Shown here piece by piece: positions 6,942 through 57,777 of a stretch of DNA of 64,000 bases. This stretch comes from Aureivirga marina (GTDB taxonomy: Bacteria > Bacteroidota > Bacteroidia > Flavobacteriales > Flavobacteriaceae): the NCBI RefSeq assembly GCF_015767265.1, contig NZ_JADPIB010000001.1:496001-560000 (forward strand). Reading direction: 5' to 3'. Each line of letters begins with the position of its first letter. The stretch's first letter is position 1. The position numbers and the translations under genes were made by a program. The notes below the pieces were generated by a model. The model ran no database searches, was not told the origin of the DNA, and saw only the letters and a program-made list of their open reading frames with translations.

Positions 6942-7107
6942 CATTTTTGATATAAATAAGAAATCTTCTTTTTATTTTATAATTCATAAAAAATTTCTTA
7001 AAAAATGAAAAAAATATAGATTCTATTTTAAAAAATAGTTTTTAGCCTCTTTTTCAAAAGCATCCAATTTTCAGAAAATAAATAGCATTTTTTTACTCTA
7101 CAATTTT

Positions 7108-7144
7108 TTATAAAAAATCGAGTCCAATAAATTATTGAACTCGA
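7108..7144 (-). terminator. Terminator of the 7186-11800 operon
   Basis: Stem TCGAGT-c-CAAT / ATTG-a-ACTCGA around a 5-base loop, followed on the minus strand by ATTTTTTA. It lies about 40 bases past the last gene of the operon. Confidence 0.85.
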
Positions 7145-7185
7145 CAAACTGTTTGTGTTTAACCTTCAAAAAAATCAAAAAATAT

Positions 7186-8439
7186 TTAAAAATATTGTCC
7201 TAATCCTATCACTAATCCATTCGAAGAATTTCTAGTGACTCCGTAGCCATAATCAATTCTTATGACTGCGTTATAAATTCGTTTATGTAAAAAACGTAAT
7301 CCAATTCCTGGATATACATTTACTTTATTTGCTCTTAAAAAGTTAGAAATATCCTCTCCAGGTTGTCTAATTAAACCTGTGTCGACAAATCCAACCCCTT
7401 GAATTCCTAACCAATCATTTTCGTATAATGTATGTCGGTATTCATTATTTAAAATTACAGTCGCAGTTCCACGATCAATTCTATCACCAATTCCACGAAT
7501 ATTAATATGGTTATCCAAAGCAAAAGGTGCAAAAGGCGAATCGTTATTTGTTGCTAAACCAACTCGAAAACGAAAAGCTAAATTCCCTTTTTCTTTTACT
7601 CTTTTATAATATTTGACATCATTCCATCCAATCAAGAAATCATCCGCAACTCCTTCTGCTGTTTTTACAGATTGGAAATAAAAACTATTTGCAATTCCAT
7701 CAACATAGAAGAAATGTTGTTTTACATTATTATATTCATAATTAAATTTCAACAACCATTTATCAATATTTAAAGTCAAAGGCTTATCTGTAATTTCATC
7801 TGCTCCTTCTACATGGTTATATCTTTCATTAAAAAAAGTTCCACCAACTGAAAAAGTATTTTTAAAATCTAATTCATAAAAACCTAATAATTCAATGGAA
7901 CGATTTTGATAAGTATAGGTAGCTTCGATATCATTTGGTCCGAAATAAAGTGGTTCATCAGAAGTCCAATTCATATGATTTAATTCAACTCCAAATCGAG
8001 AACCAAATAGGAAAGGAATTTTCAAATTTACTCCATAAGAATTATGTGTATTATATTGATAAAATCCACCCAAAGTGATATTTCTTCCTAAAAGATTGTA
8101 TTCATAAGCTCCAACTTTAAACCAAAGTTCATCGGAAACTGTCCATAAATTAATATCAGGAAGAATCGTGAAATTTTCTTGAAAATGATATGTTACTACA
8201 TCATCTTTCACTTGAAAATAAACATGAGCAAAAGATGGTAATCGACGTAAACGATCTATATCTTTATTTAAGATTAAAGAATCTAATGGTTCTCCTTCTT
8301 TCACTTTAATAATAGACTTCACAAAAGATGGTTTGGTTTTATCCAATCCTTCAAATTCTATTTTTTTAATAATTTTCTCTTGTGCAAAACCAATTGTTGT
8401 AAAAAGAACTGCAACAAAAATGATAAGTTTTGATTTCAT
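7186..8439 (-). CDS. Omp85/BamA-like outer membrane barrel protein
   Basis: 417 residues from the chosen start. A signal peptide (MKSKLIIFVAVLF...GFAQ) is followed by one POTRA-like domain (KIIKKIEFEGLDKTKPSFVKS, about residues 22-95) and then a beta-rich C-terminal region ending in aromatic-rich strands (LVIGLGQYF). This is the layout of short Omp85-superfamily proteins, in contrast to the five POTRA domains of BamA. The frame extends 14 codons further upstream, but the ATG at 8439 gives a proper signal peptide and sits two bases after the previous stop. Last gene of the four-gene operon. The substrate is unknown: protein insertion, transport or a passive barrel are all possible. Confidence 0.8.
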   Translation of the reverse strand: MKSKLIIFVAVLFTTIGFAQEKIIKKIEFEGLDKTKPSFVKSIIKVKEGEPLDSLILNKDIDRLRRLPSFAHVYFQVKDDVVTYHFQENFTILPDINLWTVSDELWFKVGAYEYNLLGRNITLGGFYQYNTHNSYGVNLKIPFLFGSRFGVELNHMNWTSDEPLYFGPNDIEATYTYQNRSIELLGFYELDFKNTFSVGGTFFNERYNHVEGADEITDKPLTLNIDKWLLKFNYEYNNVKQHFFYVDGIANSFYFQSVKTAEGVADDFLIGWNDVKYYKRVKEKGNLAFRFRVGLATNNDSPFAPFALDNHINIRGIGDRIDRGTATVILNNEYRHTLYENDWLGIQGVGFVDTGLIRQPGEDISNFLRANKVNVYPGIGLRFLHKRIYNAVIRIDYGYGVTRNSSNGLVIGLGQYF

Positions 8440-8441
8440 AA

Positions 8442-9194
8442 TTATGGCATAAATTCTTTTTGAATTACAGTATTTACCCAATTATCTTCGCTTACTCCCA
8501 TCATCGTAAAGTTGTAGGATTCTCCGGATTCTAGTTCGGGAGGCGTACGATGATGGACAGAAAGCGAAACGTTAGTAAAATCAAGGTAAGTAAACATTGG
8601 ATCGTAAGTATAAGTTCCTGAAAGTAAATCTCCGTTTAATTTAGAAATTACTTCAAAAAACACAAAACTATTATCATGAACAGAAGCGCTCCACTCAAAA
8701 GTTGGTCTTAAATCTGCATTTTGTGTAATATTTACTTCTGAAATCCAATTTGTTGGTTGCGTGTTATGTTTCAAATAAATCGGATTCGAAGTATAAAACT
8801 TATCTCCTACTTCAAAAGTTACGATTACCCAAGTCTCATTTTCTTTCGCTCTTACAAACCTTTTTAAATGTCCATTAAAAACATCTTCTAAAGGGAAAGA
8901 GCTAAATTCTTTATAGTTTGCTAAATTATTTTTATCGTCTTGAATTGAAGTTGTTTCAAAATATTTAAAATTCGTAGCACCTTCAATTGGATAAAAGAAA
9001 ACCCAAGAAGTTTCTTGTTGTTCTTTTGCAGAAGCTGCGCAAGCAATTACATTGTATGCATCAATTTCAGCAAAATTTTCTGCATATTTATCTAGGGTCA
9101 ATGTTGTTGTTGCTGTATCATCATCGTTAGAACACGAAATGAAAAAGATGGTACAACAAAAAATAATTAATTTGGTTAAAAATCTAGTTTTCAT
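8442..9194 (-). CDS. Surface lipoprotein of unknown function
   Basis: 250 residues. The signal peptide ends in lipobox FISC; the mature N-terminus CSNDDDT matches the surface export signal known for Bacteroidetes lipoproteins (acidic residues just after the cysteine). The body looks like beta-sandwich repeats: two segments each with Pro-Thr and Trp-rich strands, e.g. TSWVFFYPIEGATNF and RPTFEWSASV. No enzyme motif seen. It overlaps the preceding gene by 11 bases and ends two bases before the barrel gene, so the operon assignment is firm. It may bind a ligand or partner for the neighbouring hydrolase; this is inference. Confidence 0.7.
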   Translation of the reverse strand: MKTRFLTKLIIFCCTIFFISCSNDDDTATTTLTLDKYAENFAEIDAYNVIACAASAKEQQETSWVFFYPIEGATNFKYFETTSIQDDKNNLANYKEFSSFPLEDVFNGHLKRFVRAKENETWVIVTFEVGDKFYTSNPIYLKHNTQPTNWISEVNITQNADLRPTFEWSASVHDNSFVFFEVISKLNGDLLSGTYTYDPMFTYLDFTNVSLSVHHRTPPELESGESYNFTMMGVSEDNWVNTVIQKEFMP

Positions 9195-10224
9195 ATTGCT
9201 CTTTTAAAATTTCTTCGGCTGGTTTATTTTGAACTGTAAATCGATTATCTGTTTCTCCATTTACATTTTCATCATTTTGATGCCATTTCCAAATAAATCC
9301 TCCAGCAAACCATTCTTCTTCCCAGAAAGTTTCAAACACTGCTTTTAAAGCATTAATTTGTGCTTGATGGTTTATTGGCTGATCTGCATGACTAGCATCC
9401 CAAGGCTCTTTTGTATTAAAATCAATATTTCTATATCCAAATTCTGTAAACAAAATCTTCTTTTGAATCGTTTCAGATTTGGTTTGTAATTTAGTTTTAA
9501 TTGCTTGCCAAGCAGTTTTTAGAGCTTCTAACTCTGGCGTGTGTGCATCCGAAAGTGGGAAATAAGCATTTACTCCGATGAAATCTAAATCTTCATAAAA
9601 ACTCACATGTTCATATTCATCCCAGTTTGCTGCATAAGTTAATTTTCCAGAATATACTTCTTTAATTTTCGGAATTAATTGTTTCCAAAACATTGGTCTT
9701 TCAACAGAAAATTTTTTCATTTCTGTTCCGATAGCAAACATTTCAAGATTATATCTTTCTGCTATGATAGCATAAGTTAAAATGAAATTTTCATAATTTG
9801 TCTCAAAAATTTGCCATTTTTCTTCCGAATTATAAGAAATATCTCCTGTAAAAGATCCTGGAATCCAAATTTGTGGTTTTAATAAAACTTGGATGTTTTT
9901 TTGATGAAACAGCTTTGAAATTTCTCGGATTCCTTCTTCTGTTTCTCCCCACCAAACTTGTCCTGGCTCAGTATTGTAAAAAATAGATGTTGCTTCTAAG
10001 TTTTGCATAAAACCAAAAGGAATTAAAGCAGACCAATTGGCATTTACGTCTTCAACATGTACAACATCTTCTGGATCAATCACCTCGTTAATAGCCTCAA
10101 AGCTAATCCCATTTACAGGATTAACTTTTGTGGCTACGGGGGATGATAAACCAACCTCGTCTTTATTACAAGACTTGGTAAAAAAACTTGTTATTAATAC
10201 TATCCAAATAATTTTAAAGTTCAT
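9184..10224 (-). CDS. GH113-like TIM-barrel glycoside hydrolase lipoprotein
   Basis: 346 residues. N-terminal lipoprotein signal with C19 (TKSCNKDE, again with an acidic surface-export-like tail). The remainder reads as a TIM barrel of the GH113 / glycoside-hydrolase TIM-barrel-like type, a family that includes beta-mannanases. Probable acid/base E168 in AIGTEM and nucleophile E261 in LFTEFGYR; strand motifs FIGVNAYFP and FIWKWH also fit. Substrate cannot be read from sequence. It starts 10 bases after the DUF547-barrel gene and overlaps the following lipoprotein gene by 11 bases. Clan-level call is good; the exact family needs a profile search. Confidence 0.8.
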   Translation of the reverse strand: MNFKIIWIVLITSFFTKSCNKDEVGLSSPVATKVNPVNGISFEAINEVIDPEDVVHVEDVNANWSALIPFGFMQNLEATSIFYNTEPGQVWWGETEEGIREISKLFHQKNIQVLLKPQIWIPGSFTGDISYNSEEKWQIFETNYENFILTYAIIAERYNLEMFAIGTEMKKFSVERPMFWKQLIPKIKEVYSGKLTYAANWDEYEHVSFYEDLDFIGVNAYFPLSDAHTPELEALKTAWQAIKTKLQTKSETIQKKILFTEFGYRNIDFNTKEPWDASHADQPINHQAQINALKAVFETFWEEEWFAGGFIWKWHQNDENVNGETDNRFTVQNKPAEEILKEQYEN

Positions 10225-42936: not shown

Positions 42937-44340
42937 ATGAACAAATATGATGTGGCTGTAATTGGTTCTGGTCCTGGTGGCTATGTTGCAGCAATTAGAT
43001 GTGCACAATTAGGCTTAAAAACAGCAATTATTGAAAAATATTCTACTTTAGGAGGAACTTGTTTAAATGTTGGATGCATTCCATCAAAAGCATTATTAGA
43101 TTCTTCTCACCATTATCACGATGCAGTGCATCATTTCGAAAAACACGGAATTGGTGTTGACGGTTTAAAAGTAGATTTAGGACAAATGATTTCTCGTAAA
43201 GATGAAGTAGTTTCTCAAACTACAGAAGGAATCAATTTCTTAATGAGTAAAAACAATATTGATGTTTACCAAGGAATTGGAAGTTTTAAAGACGCTACAA
43301 ATATCAATATTACAAAAGAGGACGGAAACGTAGAAACAATTGAAGCTGCAAAAACAATTATTGCAACAGGTTCAAAACCATCTACACTTCCATTTATCAC
43401 TTTAGATAAAAAAAGAGTAATTACTTCAACTGAAGCTTTAAAATTAAAAGAAATTCCTAAACACATGATTATTATTGGTGGTGGAGTTATCGGTTTAGAG
43501 CTTGGTTCTGTTTATAAAAGATTAGGAGCTGAAGTTTCTGTAGTTGAGTTTATGCCAACAATTATTCCTACAATGGATAAAATGTTAGCTAAAGAATTAC
43601 AAAAATCATTAAAGAAACAAGGAATGAAGTTCTACACTTCTCACAAAGTGACTTCTGTTACAAACAATGGTGATGAAGTTGTGGTAACTGCTGATGATAA
43701 AAAAGGAAAATCAGTAGAATTTAAAGGAGATTATGTTTTAGTTTCTGTTGGAAGAAGACCTTTTACTGATGGATTAGGTTTAGACAATGTTGGAATTAAC
43801 GTAAATGAAAGAGGTCAAATTGAAACAAACGATCATTTACAAACTAATGTTTCTAATATTTTTGCAATTGGTGATGTTGTTAAAGGAGCAATGTTAGCAC
43901 ACAAAGCAGAAGAAGAAGGAACGATGGTTGCTGAATTTATTGCAGGACAAAAACCACACATTAATTATAATTTAATTCCTGGGGTTGTTTATACTTGGCC
44001 AGAAGTTGCTGCTGTTGGAAAAACAGAAGAGCAATTAAAAGAAGAAGGAGTTGCTTACAAATCTGGAAGTTTCCCAATGAGAGCTTTAGGTAGAGCAAGA
44101 GCTAGTATGGATATTGAAGGACAAGTAAAAGTTTTAGCTGATAAAGAAACAGATGAAATTTTAGGAGTTCATATGATTGGAGCAAGAGCTGCAGATATGA
44201 TTGCTGAAGCTGTTGTTGCAATGGAATTCAGAGCATCTGCTGAAGATGTTTCAAGAATGTCACATGCACATCCAACGTTTACAGAAGCGATAAAAGAAGC
44301 TTGTTTAGCTGCTACAGATAATAGACCAATTCATAGCTAA
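42937..44340 (+). CDS. lpdA: Dihydrolipoyl dehydrogenase
   Basis: 467 residues. E3 component of 2-oxo acid dehydrogenase complexes: FAD motif VIGSGPGGYVAAIR, redox disulfide GGTCLNVGCIPSKALL, NAD motif IIGGGVIGLELGS, AIGDVVKGAMLAHKAEEEG, and the C-terminal HAHPTFTEAIKEA with the catalytic His-Glu pair. Stand-alone, as is usual in this phylum, so it can serve several complexes. A strong terminator follows. Confidence 0.97.
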   Translation: MNKYDVAVIGSGPGGYVAAIRCAQLGLKTAIIEKYSTLGGTCLNVGCIPSKALLDSSHHYHDAVHHFEKHGIGVDGLKVDLGQMISRKDEVVSQTTEGINFLMSKNNIDVYQGIGSFKDATNINITKEDGNVETIEAAKTIIATGSKPSTLPFITLDKKRVITSTEALKLKEIPKHMIIIGGGVIGLELGSVYKRLGAEVSVVEFMPTIIPTMDKMLAKELQKSLKKQGMKFYTSHKVTSVTNNGDEVVVTADDKKGKSVEFKGDYVLVSVGRRPFTDGLGLDNVGINVNERGQIETNDHLQTNVSNIFAIGDVVKGAMLAHKAEEEGTMVAEFIAGQKPHINYNLIPGVVYTWPEVAAVGKTEEQLKEEGVAYKSGSFPMRALGRARASMDIEGQVKVLADKETDEILGVHMIGARAADMIAEAVVAMEFRASAEDVSRMSHAHPTFTEAIKEACLAATDNRPIHS

Positions 44341-54532: not shown

Positions 54533-55135
54533 ATGACAAAAAACGAAATTATCAATTCTGCACTTTCTCTATTTATTTTAGAAGGAATTAAAAATACTTC
54601 TATGGACGAAATTGCACAAAAAAATAATATTTCTAAAAAGACCATTTATAAGTATTTCAGTAGCAAAAATGATTTAGTTGAAAACGTTTTAAATTTTGCT
54701 GTTTTACAAATTGAAAATGGGATTTTTAAAATTCAAAAAGAAGCAAAAAATGCGGTAGATGAATTTCGAATTTATAATTTTTCCATTGAAGAACATTTTA
54801 GTGAAATAATTCCAGATTTTTTTAATGATATCGATTTAATTTGTACCGATTTAAAAGTTCATTATGCAGAAAAAATCTGTGAAATTATTCAGCTTTTTCT
54901 ACGAAAAAATATTGAAAGAGGAATTGAAGAAAATATGTATTTTAAAGATTGTAATTTGGAACTAATCGTGAATTCTTATGTCAATATTTATCGATTAGTT
55001 CTTATAGAAAAATTCAACAAAACTACTGAGACGATTAATTCCATTTTATTTTTAAATGAACTATTAAATCATTCAATAAACAACAATCAAGATATAACAA
55101 ATAAGAATTTATTACTTCCAATTTTTCAAAAATAA
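54533..55135 (+). CDS. TetR-family transcriptional regulator
   Basis: 200 residues. N-terminal helix-turn-helix: IINSALSLFILEGIKNTSMDEIAQKNNISKKTIYKYFSSKNDLV. C-terminal ligand domain is not recognisable. It is followed 43 bases later, on the same strand, by the SigZ-type sigma factor gene and may be co-transcribed with it. Possible regulator of the cassette at 55179-57777. Confidence 0.9.
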   Translation: MTKNEIINSALSLFILEGIKNTSMDEIAQKNNISKKTIYKYFSSKNDLVENVLNFAVLQIENGIFKIQKEAKNAVDEFRIYNFSIEEHFSEIIPDFFNDIDLICTDLKVHYAEKICEIIQLFLRKNIERGIEENMYFKDCNLELIVNSYVNIYRLVLIEKFNKTTETINSILFLNELLNHSINNNQDITNKNLLLPIFQK

Positions 55136-55178: not shown

Positions 55179-55766
55179 ATGAAAAAGGAATGTTGTAATA
55201 TAAATGAGATTGTTCAACACTTTTACGATTATTTAAAAGCTTTTATTTTAAAGAAAGTAAATGATAAAGAACTTGCGGAAGATTTAGTTCAAGAAGTGAT
55301 GTTGAAACTTGTTGAATCACATCAAAAAGAAATTGAAATTACGAATGTAAAAGCTTGGCTTTTTAAAGTTACTAGAAATACTATTTATGATTATTTTAAA
55401 AGTCATAAATTAGAAATTGATTTAGAAGAAAACATCAATTTATTTAAAGATTTACAAGATTCTGAGTCGAAAATCTTAACAACAGATTATATCATTCCAA
55501 TGATAGGTTTACTTCCTGAAAAATTTTCTGTTCCTTTAAAAATGAGTGATATTGAAAATATTCCCCAAAAAAAAATTGCGAAAAAATTAAACTTAGGACT
55601 TTCAGCTACAAAAATGCGCATTAAAAGAGCTCGTGTAGAATTACATGGATTATTCATTGAATGTTGTGAAATTTCTTATGATAAAAATGGTTCTTTTGTA
55701 GGTTGTACCATCAGAAATTCCTGTGATTCTCTTCATAAAATCACTAACAAATTGAATAGAAAATAA
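55179..55766 (+). CDS. sigZ: SigZ-type extracytoplasmic-function sigma factor with cysteine-rich ends
   Basis: 195 residues. Region 2 (DYLKAFILKKVNDKELAEDLVQEVMLKLV, then AWLFKVTRNTIYDYFK) and region 4 (PEKFSVPLKMSDIENIPQKKIAKKL, LSATKMRIKRARVEL) are intact. Cysteine pairs flank it: C5-C6 at the N-terminus and C162-C163 with C176 and C182 at the C-terminus. No anti-sigma gene is adjacent. Sigma factors with cysteine-rich C-terminal tails, such as CorE, sense metal directly, so this one may be its own sensor. This is inference. 86 bases separate it from the next gene, room for an autoregulated promoter. Confidence 0.9.
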   Translation: MKKECCNINEIVQHFYDYLKAFILKKVNDKELAEDLVQEVMLKLVESHQKEIEITNVKAWLFKVTRNTIYDYFKSHKLEIDLEENINLFKDLQDSESKILTTDYIIPMIGLLPEKFSVPLKMSDIENIPQKKIAKKLNLGLSATKMRIKRARVELHGLFIECCEISYDKNGSFVGCTIRNSCDSLHKITNKLNRK

Positions 55767-55792: not shown

Positions 55793-55820
55793 TGTGACTT
55801 TTACTTCTTGATTACAGACT
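55793..55820 (+). promoter_or_regulatory. Possible ECF-type promoter before the thioredoxin-like gene
   Basis: TGTGAC at 55793-55798 resembles the TGTAAC-type -35 element used by ECF sigma factors, and AT-rich DNA follows with a candidate start region about 16 bases later (CAGAC). It lies in the 86-base gap after sigZ. Weak: only one element is recognisable. Confidence 0.3.
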
Positions 55821-55852: not shown

Positions 55853-56092
55853 ATGAGTACTGAAATCAAAATTTTACATGCTTCTTGTTGTTCAAAAACA
55901 ACAAAAATTAAAAATCAATTAGAGAAAATTGCAAAAGAAAATCAGTTAGAAATTTCTATCAAAGAACTTTCGGATTTAAAAGATATAATGGTTTTTGGCA
56001 CAATGACGTTCCCTTCTTTAGTAATAAATGATAAAGTTTATGACTATAAATTATATGAATCGGATGCAAAATTAATTTCACTTTTAAAATAA
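55853..56092 (+). CDS. Small thioredoxin-like protein with vicinal cysteines
   Basis: 79 residues with a short thioredoxin-fold pattern: IKILHASCCSKTTKIKNQLEKIAKEN, then MTFPSLVINDKVYDYKL with the cis-proline TFPS. It resembles small glutaredoxin-like (thioredoxin_3) proteins, which normally carry CxxC; here the site is C12-C13. The frame extends upstream to 55808 but the ATG at 55853 fits the fold start. It lies 6 bases from the permease gene. A role in binding or reducing a thiophilic metal(loid) is inferred. Confidence 0.8.
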   Translation: MSTEIKILHASCCSKTTKIKNQLEKIAKENQLEISIKELSDLKDIMVFGTMTFPSLVINDKVYDYKLYESDAKLISLLK

Positions 56093-56098
56093 TCTGCC

Positions 56099-57073
56099 AT
56101 GAAACAATTAACAAACTTTCTCTCAGGAATTGCAGATTATCTTGTTTATGATTTACTTCAAATTACACAAAATAGTCTTTTAGGAAATGCTTTACATTAT
56201 TTCTTTATTGGATTTACAGAAATCGTGATTTTAGTGATTTTAGTGACATATCTGATGGGAATAATTACAAGTTATTTGCCAATGGATAAAATTCGATTTT
56301 ATCTAGAAAAACATAAAAAATCAGGTTTAGGAAATATTTTAGCTTCACTTCTCGGAGCAATTACACCATTTTGTTCTTGTTCATCAATTCCACTTTTTGT
56401 TGGAATGATGCAGGCAAGAATTCCACTTGGAATTGCACTTTCATTTTTAATCACTTCTCCTCTAGTTAACGAAATTGCAATAGCAATTTTCTGGGTAACT
56501 TATGGTTGGAAGGTAACTTTAATTTATATTCTAACTGGAATTACTTTAGGTGTTTTAGGAGGAATTATTTTAGAAAGATTGGGAATGGCTGCTTATGTTG
56601 CAAAATGGATTAAAAATTTGGAGCAAAATCAGACGGAGTTATCTGAAGATAAAAGAAGTTTATTAAAACGACTTCCCGAGATTAATGCAGAAGCAAAAAA
56701 AACGCTGAAAAAACTGATTCCATATATTTTTATTGGATTAGCAATTGGTTCTTTTGTTCATGGTTATGTTCCACAAACATTTTTTGAAACTTATATTTCA
56801 AAATCAAATCCGTTTGCTGTTCCAATTGCCGTAATCACAGCGATTCCACTTTATATTGATGCTGTAGGAATTTTACCAATTATTGATTCTTTAGTGAGTA
56901 AAGGTGTTCCGCTCGGTACTGCAATTGCTTTTATGATGGCTTCTATCGGATTATCGCTTCCTGAAGCTCTTTTACTTAAAAAAGTAATGGAAAAAAAATT
57001 GATTTTCGCATTTTTTTCAACCATCGGAATTGGAATGATTTTATCTGGTTTCTTCTTTAATTTCATTTTTTAA
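56099..57073 (+). CDS. ArsP/DUF318-family permease
   Basis: 324 residues with eight to ten helices. Two-fold arrangement with FCSCSSIPLF (C92, C94) and ARIPLGIALSFLITSPLVNE in the first half, and DAVGILPIIDSLVSKGVPLGTAIAFMMASIGLSLPEALLLKKV in the second, characteristic of PF03773 permeases. ArsP members export trivalent organoarsenicals; others are tied to other metals or sulfur compounds. It is flanked by small Cys-rich proteins, suggesting export of a thiophilic species handed over by them. Confidence 0.92.
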   Translation: MKQLTNFLSGIADYLVYDLLQITQNSLLGNALHYFFIGFTEIVILVILVTYLMGIITSYLPMDKIRFYLEKHKKSGLGNILASLLGAITPFCSCSSIPLFVGMMQARIPLGIALSFLITSPLVNEIAIAIFWVTYGWKVTLIYILTGITLGVLGGIILERLGMAAYVAKWIKNLEQNQTELSEDKRSLLKRLPEINAEAKKTLKKLIPYIFIGLAIGSFVHGYVPQTFFETYISKSNPFAVPIAVITAIPLYIDAVGILPIIDSLVSKGVPLGTAIAFMMASIGLSLPEALLLKKVMEKKLIFAFFSTIGIGMILSGFFFNFIF

Positions 57074-57083
57074 AACCAGCAAT

Positions 57084-57446
57084 ATGAAATCATTTTTAAC
57101 CTCAATAAGTGCTGTTTTTACAGCACTTTTATCATGTACATGTTGTGTGGCTCCTTTTTTAAGTATCGCAGGATTTTTAGGTGTAAGCACTTCTCAATTA
57201 ATTTGGCTTTCAGACATTAAAAACTATCTTATTTTCATTAGTTTGATTGCTATTAGTTATAATTTATATCGTGCTTATTCCCCAAAAGAAAAAGAAAATT
57301 GTTGTGATTTAAATCAGCAAGAAATTATTACAAAATTGAACAAAAAAGAATCAAAATTTGTTCAAATTCTTCAATCAAAAACATTTTTATGGTTGATTGC
57401 ACTTCTTACATTATTCATTTTACTATTACCATTTATCCATTTTTAA
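57084..57446 (+). CDS. MerT-like membrane protein
   Basis: 120 residues, about three helices. The first helix has C18-T-C20-C21 in LLSCTCCVAPF, like the vicinal cysteines of MerT in mercuric uptake; the cytoplasmic loop has C73-C74 in KENCCDLNQ. It ends FILLLPFIHF. It sits between the ArsP-like permease and a MerP-like lipoprotein, 10 bases after the permease stop. Mercury import by MerT is known only with MerP and a mercuric reductase, and no MerA or MerR is present here, so mercury is not the only candidate. Confidence 0.83.
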   Translation: MKSFLTSISAVFTALLSCTCCVAPFLSIAGFLGVSTSQLIWLSDIKNYLIFISLIAISYNLYRAYSPKEKENCCDLNQQEIITKLNKKESKFVQILQSKTFLWLIALLTLFILLLPFIHF

Positions 57447-57456
57447 AATCAATTTT

Positions 57457-57777
57457 ATGAAATTTCAAAATATTTTATTTTTAATATTAATTAGCCTTTC
57501 TGTTTCTTGTCAAACTTCAGAAACAACTAAAAAAAAACAAACAAAAGTCGAAAAAACTGAAAATCAGATTATTCAGAAAACTTATACTTTAAAAAACTTC
57601 AATAAATCATGCTGTATTGGAATTGTTGCGTATTCTTTGAAAAAAGTAGATGGCTTTAAAAAGTCGGAAGCAAATACTAAAAAACAGCAAATAACCGTTT
57701 GGTATGAAAAGCAAAGATGTAATGAGACGGAAATTAAAAATGCTATTAACAAAACTCCTTATAAAATAGTTAATTAG
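57457..57777 (+). CDS. MerP-like lipoprotein with an HMA-type domain and Cys-Cys motif
   Basis: 106 residues from the chosen start. Lipoprotein signal (lipobox SVSC, C18), a charged linker, then a heavy-metal-associated-like fold: YTLKNFNKSCCIGIVAYSLKKVDGF, QQITVWYEKQRCNETEIKNAINKTPYKI. MerP uses CxxC; here the pair is directly adjacent (C52-C53), with C88 further on. The frame extends upstream to 57397, inside the MerT-like gene, but ATG 57457 gives a signal peptide. It probably captures the metal in the periplasm for the MerT-like protein. Confidence 0.78.
   Translation: MKFQNILFLILISLSVSCQTSETTKKKQTKVEKTENQIIQKTYTLKNFNKSCCIGIVAYSLKKVDGFKKSEANTKKQQITVWYEKQRCNETEIKNAINKTPYKIVN

Follow-up and report, generated by a model that had tools for sequence, protein, structure and literature searches.

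The window analyzed here, a stretch of 64,000 nucleotides from Aureivirga marina (Flavobacteriaceae), carries an open reading frame for a SigZ-like ECF σ factor, which is followed on the same strand by genes for a thioredoxin/ArsE-like protein, an ArsP_1 permease, a MerT-like protein, and a MerP-like protein and is preceded by a gene for a TetR-type regulator (Table 1). The top NCBIfam matches of the σ factor are two SigZ models (TIGR02959 and NF007215), which are also its best matches among σ factor families; because both scores stay under the curated cut-offs (142.5 of 168.65 and 145.8 of 212 bits), the label "SigZ-like" fits and "SigZ" is only approximate. In the window, neither adjacent gene encodes an anti-σ factor, the upstream one being of the TetR type and the downstream one thioredoxin-like, and no anti-σ domain is present among the 25 commonest of the 108 Pfam families found in 115 same-strand neighbors of SigZ loci, in agreement with a preliminary description of this locus. 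The upstream TetR gene, considered as a partner, was rejected because it does not lie beside the σ factor gene in the relatives read, and it probably stands outside the σ system.

Table 1. Features of the SigZ-like locus, with positions counted from the first nucleotide of the window
Feature	Position	Strand	Basis
TetR-type regulator, 43 bp upstream of the σ factor gene	54533..55135	+	Pfam
SigZ-like ECF σ factor, 195 aa	55179..55766	+	ORF, NCBIfam and Pfam matches
C5-C6 pair	55191..55196	+	ArsP-subclade alignment
C162-C163 pair	55662..55667	+	Family alignment
C176	55704..55706	+	Family and ArsP-subclade alignments
C182	55722..55724	+	Family and ArsP-subclade alignments
SigZ-type promoter-like element, TGTGACTTTT-N12-CAGACT	55793..55820	+	Sole exact copy of the pattern in the 3.93-Mb genome
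Thioredoxin-like gene, ATG at 55853	55853..56092	+	Thioredoxin_3; TIGR00412 (MTH895/ArsE type), below cut-off
ArsP_1 family permease (PF03773)	56099..57073	+	Pfam, E 3e-63
MerT-like small membrane protein	57084..57446	+	NCBIfam and Pfam matches below cut-off
MerP-like small lipoprotein-like Cys protein	57457..57777	+	NCBIfam matches below cut-off

The SigZ-like protein has cysteines at residues 5, 6, 162, 163, 176, and 182, with none between C6 and C162. Pfam places region 2 at residues 12 to 77 and region 4 at residues 108 to 155, and alignments to those solved ECF structures that extend into region 4 end at about residue 157 to 162, so that the C-terminal cysteines lie outside the σ folds, in an extra tail; C5-C6 likewise lie outside these folds, as the preliminary description had stated. 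An AlphaFold model of mediocre quality (mean pLDDT, 70.4; pTM, 0.45) predicts with moderate confidence a hairpin (residues 163 to 178) and a helix (residues 183 to 194), both after the long helix of region 4.

Homologs were collected by a family search, in which 46 of 249 genomes matched at an E value of 1e-20, and by a phylum search, in which 47 of 395 genomes matched a 19-sequence profile at an E value of 1e-30. The locus set (n = 89) consists of the window, 80 fetched regions, and eight named relatives (Aquimarina, two Tenacibaculum, Maribacter, Flavobacterium, two Flagellimonas, and one Bacteroidetes MAG) and includes 81 of the 93 distinct places found by the searches, the 12 left out being G079, G213, G045, G180, G013, G188, G033:C23, G425, G624, G419, G503, and G426. 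Together with a second SigZ in locus L153, these loci provide 90 SigZ proteins, which we compared with the proteins of 73 control ECF loci, mostly from other phyla, six of them from the A. marina genome with flanks of 1.5 kb only. At least three cysteines are present in the last 45 residues of 83 of the 90 SigZ proteins compared to 2 of the 73 control ECF factors, which rules out chance cysteines in an ordinary σ factor; both cysteine-tailed controls (L156 and L158) are themselves SigZ-like by profile score and tail. Cysteine accounts for 11.8% of tail residues and 1.1% of core residues.

The family alignment holds 102 unique sequences out of 104, the latter including 12 plasmid members, L156, and L158. 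Within it, the tail cysteines are far from freely variable: C162 is a cysteine in 90 sequences, C163 in 91, and C182 in 90, the remaining 12 having alignment gaps at this last position, whereas C176 is a cysteine in 16 of 102. The usual content of the tail is three to four cysteines, and fewer than three were counted in 7 of 102 sequences, one of which is ars linked (L120). The window protein resembles the SigZ family both in the match over the whole core and in the C-terminal CC...C tail of its aligned relatives; enterobacterial plasmid members carry a C...CC rather than a CC...C tail. The cysteine tail thus characterizes the SigZ family at large, and the earlier proposal that the principle evolved here proves too narrow.

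In a tree of the σ core (102 rows and 148 columns, with many unresolved forks), the window protein falls into a clade of 24 rows with 100% support, 20 of them ars linked. Among the 13 unique proteins of the ArsP subclade, C163, C176, and C182 are each found in all 13, C162 and C6 in 12, and C5 in 11; the C5-C6 pair is complete in 11 members, reduced to one cysteine in L088, and absent from the congener L039, which nevertheless retains the same operon and promoter. Compared to the SigZ family, the window's subclade adds C5-C6 and C176 and lacks a cysteine in the linker, and C5-C6 and C176 are mainly markers of this subclade. The N-terminal pair, lost from L039 and confined for the most part to one subclade, is less essential than the preliminary description had assumed. 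The linker cysteine, located before region 4 in the column of residue 104, is shared by 66 of 102 SigZ proteins, none of them from the ArsP subclade, whose members have the N-terminal cysteines instead (Fisher P of 0.002 for the two distributions, with kinship ignored); it recalls the linker CXC of CorE.

Clustering of the genes surrounding the 89 loci, done without preset families, returned ArsP at position +2 or +3 in 13 loci, thioredoxin at +1 in 11, and an ArsI/CadI-like protein at +1 or +2 in 11, as well as, at variable positions, ArsM (7 loci), ArsC-like (7), MerT-like (7), MerP-like (6), ACR3 (5), DUF2703-like (4), and DUF6428 (4) proteins. Cluster representatives scored above curated cut-offs for ArsI/CadI, arsenite methyltransferase, ACR3, and DUF6428. 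Nonmetal clusters were also recovered, for example, a mutase-like protein at −1 to −4 in 14 loci, and reflect the conserved chromosomal setting of a Flavobacteriaceae lineage. Across the 76 SigZ-bearing genomes, and with expectations computed for an assumed genome of 3.8 Mb, 12 of 14 ArsI genes lie within 5 kb of SigZ (0.04 expected), as do 7 of 27 ArsM genes (0.09 expected) and 5 of 51 ACR3 genes (0.16 expected); five of the 12 ArsI cases come from one genus (g308), and seven families are represented. With a single HMM set, an ars-type gene was detected within 5 kb at 37 of the 89 SigZ loci and at none of the 73 control loci, a comparison biased toward the SigZ side because the HMMs were built from SigZ neighborhoods. 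In the Flagellimonas locus L153, ArsR, DUF6428, and ArsC-like genes are followed by the σ factor, thioredoxin, and ArsP genes and then by the second SigZ and a DUF2703-like gene. In L153 (positions 7001 to 9458) and L154, two different SigZ paralogs, with CC...C and C...CC tails, share one Flagellimonas ars cluster. The A. marina genome itself gave no match to ACR3, ArsM, or ArsI at the thresholds used, so that ArsP, the ArsE-like thioredoxin, and the relatives carry the arsenic case for the window.

The association extends to plasmids, 1413 of which encode a SigZ homolog by protein search (1050 from Klebsiella; 1142 conjugative). We read 19 plasmid regions, picked for variety and not at random, and 18 of them have, close to the σ factor gene, either an ars gene or a permease of the ArsP type. 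In 11 of the 19, namely R64, Klebsiella grimontii, Hafnia, four Klebsiella pneumoniae, Enterobacter roggenkampii, two Citrobacter, and Salmonella Infantis, arsH, arsD, or arsA directly adjoins the σ factor gene. A permease and a thioredoxin follow it in five, one with unnamed products; this σ factor-permease-thioredoxin order recurs in Enterobacteriaceae, and Klebsiella quasipneumoniae combines such a module with a complete ars operon in divergent orientation. The σ factor gene of Vibrio is overlapped by an ArsR-type gene, from which the gene for an ArsP-type permease diverges; in Photobacterium, ArsP lies 2.2 kb downstream. A Rhodococcus match (H87), unscored by the SigZ HMM, has no adjoining ars gene, and in an Anaerolineales MAG (L156) a DUF2703 gene is apparent, by eye only, upstream of the σ factor gene. 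The passage of PMC12504007 concerned with a Salmonella plasmid lists a σ70-like gene with arsH, arsD, and arsA and assigns it no role there.

A second type of SigZ neighborhood is marked by cysteine-rich mini-ORFs, found within 700 bp and on the same strand at 37 of the 89 SigZ loci compared to 4 of the 73 controls; 34 of these 37 loci have no ars genes. An ars gene or a mini-ORF is present at 71 of the 89 loci, and neither was found at the other 18. Four mini-ORF representatives gave no useful Pfam or NCBIfam match, for which reason assignment to a named family was rejected and "metallothionein-like" is a description from the cysteine pattern. Many of these loci (L049, L050, L055, L090, L129, L131 to L143, and others) encode metallothionein-like peptides of 33 to 40 aa (CTCNCxxC...CTCxxCNC) upstream of SigZ and in an apparent operon with it. 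The A. marina genome has a second SigZ (L038, positions 7131 to 7658; G000:C20) with a cysteine-rich mini-ORF of 58 aa upstream and a single promoter site of its own. Taken together, the genomic context strongly supports a putative metal(loid) role for SigZ, with trivalent arsenicals or soft metals like them indicated instead of copper or cadmium.

The intergenic regions share a promoter-like element. In the ArsP subclade, it lies between the σ factor gene and the next gene and reads TGTG(T/A)CTTTT-N11/12-CAG(A/T)CT, whereas it takes the form TGCGTCTTTT-N-NGTC(T/A) at ArsM- and ArsI-linked loci; the −10 part is of the CAGACT type in nearly all members of the subclade, in contrast to the CGTCT type of the SigZ family. 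A strict pattern, derived partly from the loci counted and hence not fully independent of them, yielded 63 sites within 400 bp of σ in 59 of the 89 loci, compared to a mean of 0.08 and a maximum of 2 in 50 dinucleotide shuffles. Fifty of the 63 sites have a length of exactly 27 bases, and a strict site was found at 23 of 37 ars-linked loci, 31 of 37 mini-ORF-linked loci, and 7 of 18 loci with neither. A relaxed pattern is 59-fold denser near σ; it gave no site near σ in 10 of the 37 ars-linked loci, seven of which belong to one ArsI-linked lineage, although TGCGTCTTTTT stretches are visible by eye in L109 and L115. A SigZ-ArsI lineage (L109, L114 to L117, and L122) has a gene for an M48 CAAX-protease-like protein upstream, and the standard promoter pattern was not found in it. 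All 10 intergenic stretches examined from plasmids contain similar elements, the −10 being looser in those of R64-type operons. Downstream of the σ factor gene in L153 and L236, the −35 element forms part of a longer inverted repeat, GTGTC-TTTT-GACAC, a possible operator for some other regulator.

At the mini-ORF loci, the element mostly precedes both the mini-ORF and the σ factor gene, which implies autoregulation. The window has no such site within 400 bp upstream of the σ factor gene itself, and its single copy precedes the thioredoxin gene. The pattern TGCGTCTTTTN{8,13}CGTC has no match in the A. marina genome, and the other promoter pattern occurs there at a single place, ahead of the mini-ORF that accompanies the second SigZ. 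From these sequences, the two SigZ paralogs of this genome appear to read two private promoters with different −35/−10 pairs.

An autoregulated σ factor that has no anti-σ factor needs a switch of its activity, for which no conserved candidate other than the tail was seen. Our best reading of the data is that SigZ constitutes a family of anti-σ-free ECF factors that soft metal(loid)s would turn on by way of the tail. For the window, we find it fairly probable that the SigZ-like protein works without an anti-σ factor, binds a soft poison with its cysteine tail, and activates the thioredoxin-ArsP operon, and trivalent arsenicals are the most likely ligand in its clade. In such a mechanism, C162-C163, C176, and C182, perhaps helped by C5-C6, would bind a thiol-seeking soft poison, for which the trivalent arsenicals arsenite and methylarsenite are the most likely candidates; the bound tail would pack differently on region 4, and σ would become active; RNA polymerase with active σ would start at the element at 55793 to 55820; and the four genes downstream, from the thioredoxin-like to the MerP-like one, would be transcribed, their products serving to reduce, trap, or export the poison. 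Chelation of As(III) by three thiols is established chemistry, and tails with mostly three to four cysteines fit it, which leads us to propose direct activation by a trivalent arsenical or a soft metal of similar kind. We infer the direct binding of a metal(loid), the identity of the ligand, and activation rather than repression from sequence and genomic context. The idea of a one-component sensor, put forward in the preliminary description, is thereby strengthened in that the tail is conserved, an anti-σ factor is lacking, and the context is one of metal(loid)s, while binding and switching by the tail stay at the level of a proposal.

The same one-component design could instead be induced by another soft metal, chiefly Hg(II) but alternatively copper or cadmium, with an operon that handles that metal. 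We regard this as unlikely, although a MerP-like gene at +4 in the window and five relatives, a MerT-like gene at +3 in seven loci, the replacement of the thioredoxin gene by a MerT-like gene in L155, and the non-ars SigZ clade with metallothionein-like mini-ORFs would all fit it. ArsP and thioredoxin are the more constant partners, the relatives from Flagellimonas are part of an ars cluster (ArsR, ArsC-like, DUF6428), and mercury resistance through MerA was rejected since none of the five genomes searched from the ArsP subclade has a MerA above the curated cut-off. All five have MerA-resembling matches below that cut-off; the one in the window, at 42946 to 44310, is an FAD disulfide oxidoreductase (367 of 454 bits).

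The position of σ behind arsR and arsH in R64-type operons means that ArsR may control the σ factor instead, and the order arsR-arsH-σ-arsD on enterobacterial plasmids, together with the TetR gene close upstream in the window, could be taken to mean that σ is an unswitched amplifier whose level is set by ArsR (here TetR), with structural zinc held by the tail cysteines. This is quite unlikely in our judgment, given that neither ArsR nor TetR is conserved beside σ in the subclade and that the σ factor of the mini-ORF clade appears to be autoregulated from its own promoter and hence to need an activity switch. A redox (disulfide) switch in the tail that senses thiol oxidation, is reduced by the thioredoxin-like partner, and responds to metals only indirectly would suit the vicinal CC pairs and the presence, immediately downstream in 11 loci, of a thioredoxin-like gene whose product contains CC, but it is improbable because the genes targeted serve export or methylation or are metallothionein-like, a thioredoxin neighbor is lacking at most family loci, and three to four tail cysteines suit metal(loid) chelation.

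Returning to activation by a bound arsenical, a wider claim, which we advance only tentatively and with a little less than even confidence, is that SigZ is a new class of arsenic sensors whose own C-terminal cysteines chelate trivalent arsenicals and which fire one conserved promoter, TGCRTCTTTT-N11-CGTCT, before ars or metallothionein genes. Such a class would span Bacteroidota, Proteobacteria, Chloroflexi, and many of the 1413 plasmids, and paralogs in one cell would each read a single private promoter. The sequence evidence proposes a function for SigZ, predicts its promoter, and names a ligand that can be tested, none of which we found in the literature searched, and places a homolog in the ars clusters of well-known plasmids (R64 and Klebsiella resistance plasmids). 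The pair of sensor and promoter could serve as an arsenic biosensor.

Our literature search, with the main ECF classification paper outside it, returned no link of SigZ or any ECF factor to ars operons; of two papers naming both "sigZ" and "arsenic," one only reports sigZ to be absent and the other is on cyanotoxins. Among the closest known systems are CorE and CorE2 of Myxococcus xanthus (ECF44, now ECF238), which, as described in PMC3107203 and PMC8999054, share with the window protein a cysteine-rich C-terminal extension, the absence of an anti-σ factor, and metal-detoxification targets. The context of CorE is copper or cadmium and that of the window protein is arsenic, and membership in the CorE-like group (ECF44/ECF238) was rejected because the linker CXC motif given in PMC8999054 is absent; by analogy, then, the window protein is one that would work like CorE without being a CorE member. 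CorE itself has four invariant cysteines and requires metal for binding to promoter DNA. The 21 factors with a cysteine-rich domain in the CorE list come only from Proteobacteria, Acidobacteria, Verrucomicrobia, and Nitrospira. According to PMC3107203, CorE without its cysteine-rich domain is inactive, not freed, and by this analogy we prefer activation over repression here. The parts of PMC8999054 that cover CorE and the ECF groups mention neither SigZ nor arsenic; they state that a CorE-like mechanism has been suggested for ECF287 and ECF288, which have cysteine-rich tails and named examples in Nocardia and Blautia.

Arsenic responses are mainly known through repressors such as ArsR, a DNA-binding protein released by arsenite. 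ArsR proteins and the σ factor of the window have in common a cytoplasmic location, cysteine thiols, and, as proposed for σ, the control of ars genes. They differ in that ArsR represses, whereas the candidate sensor described here is a σ factor that would be switched on. If our reading is correct, a σ factor acting as its own metalloid sensor would follow a different logic, that of activation via a private promoter.
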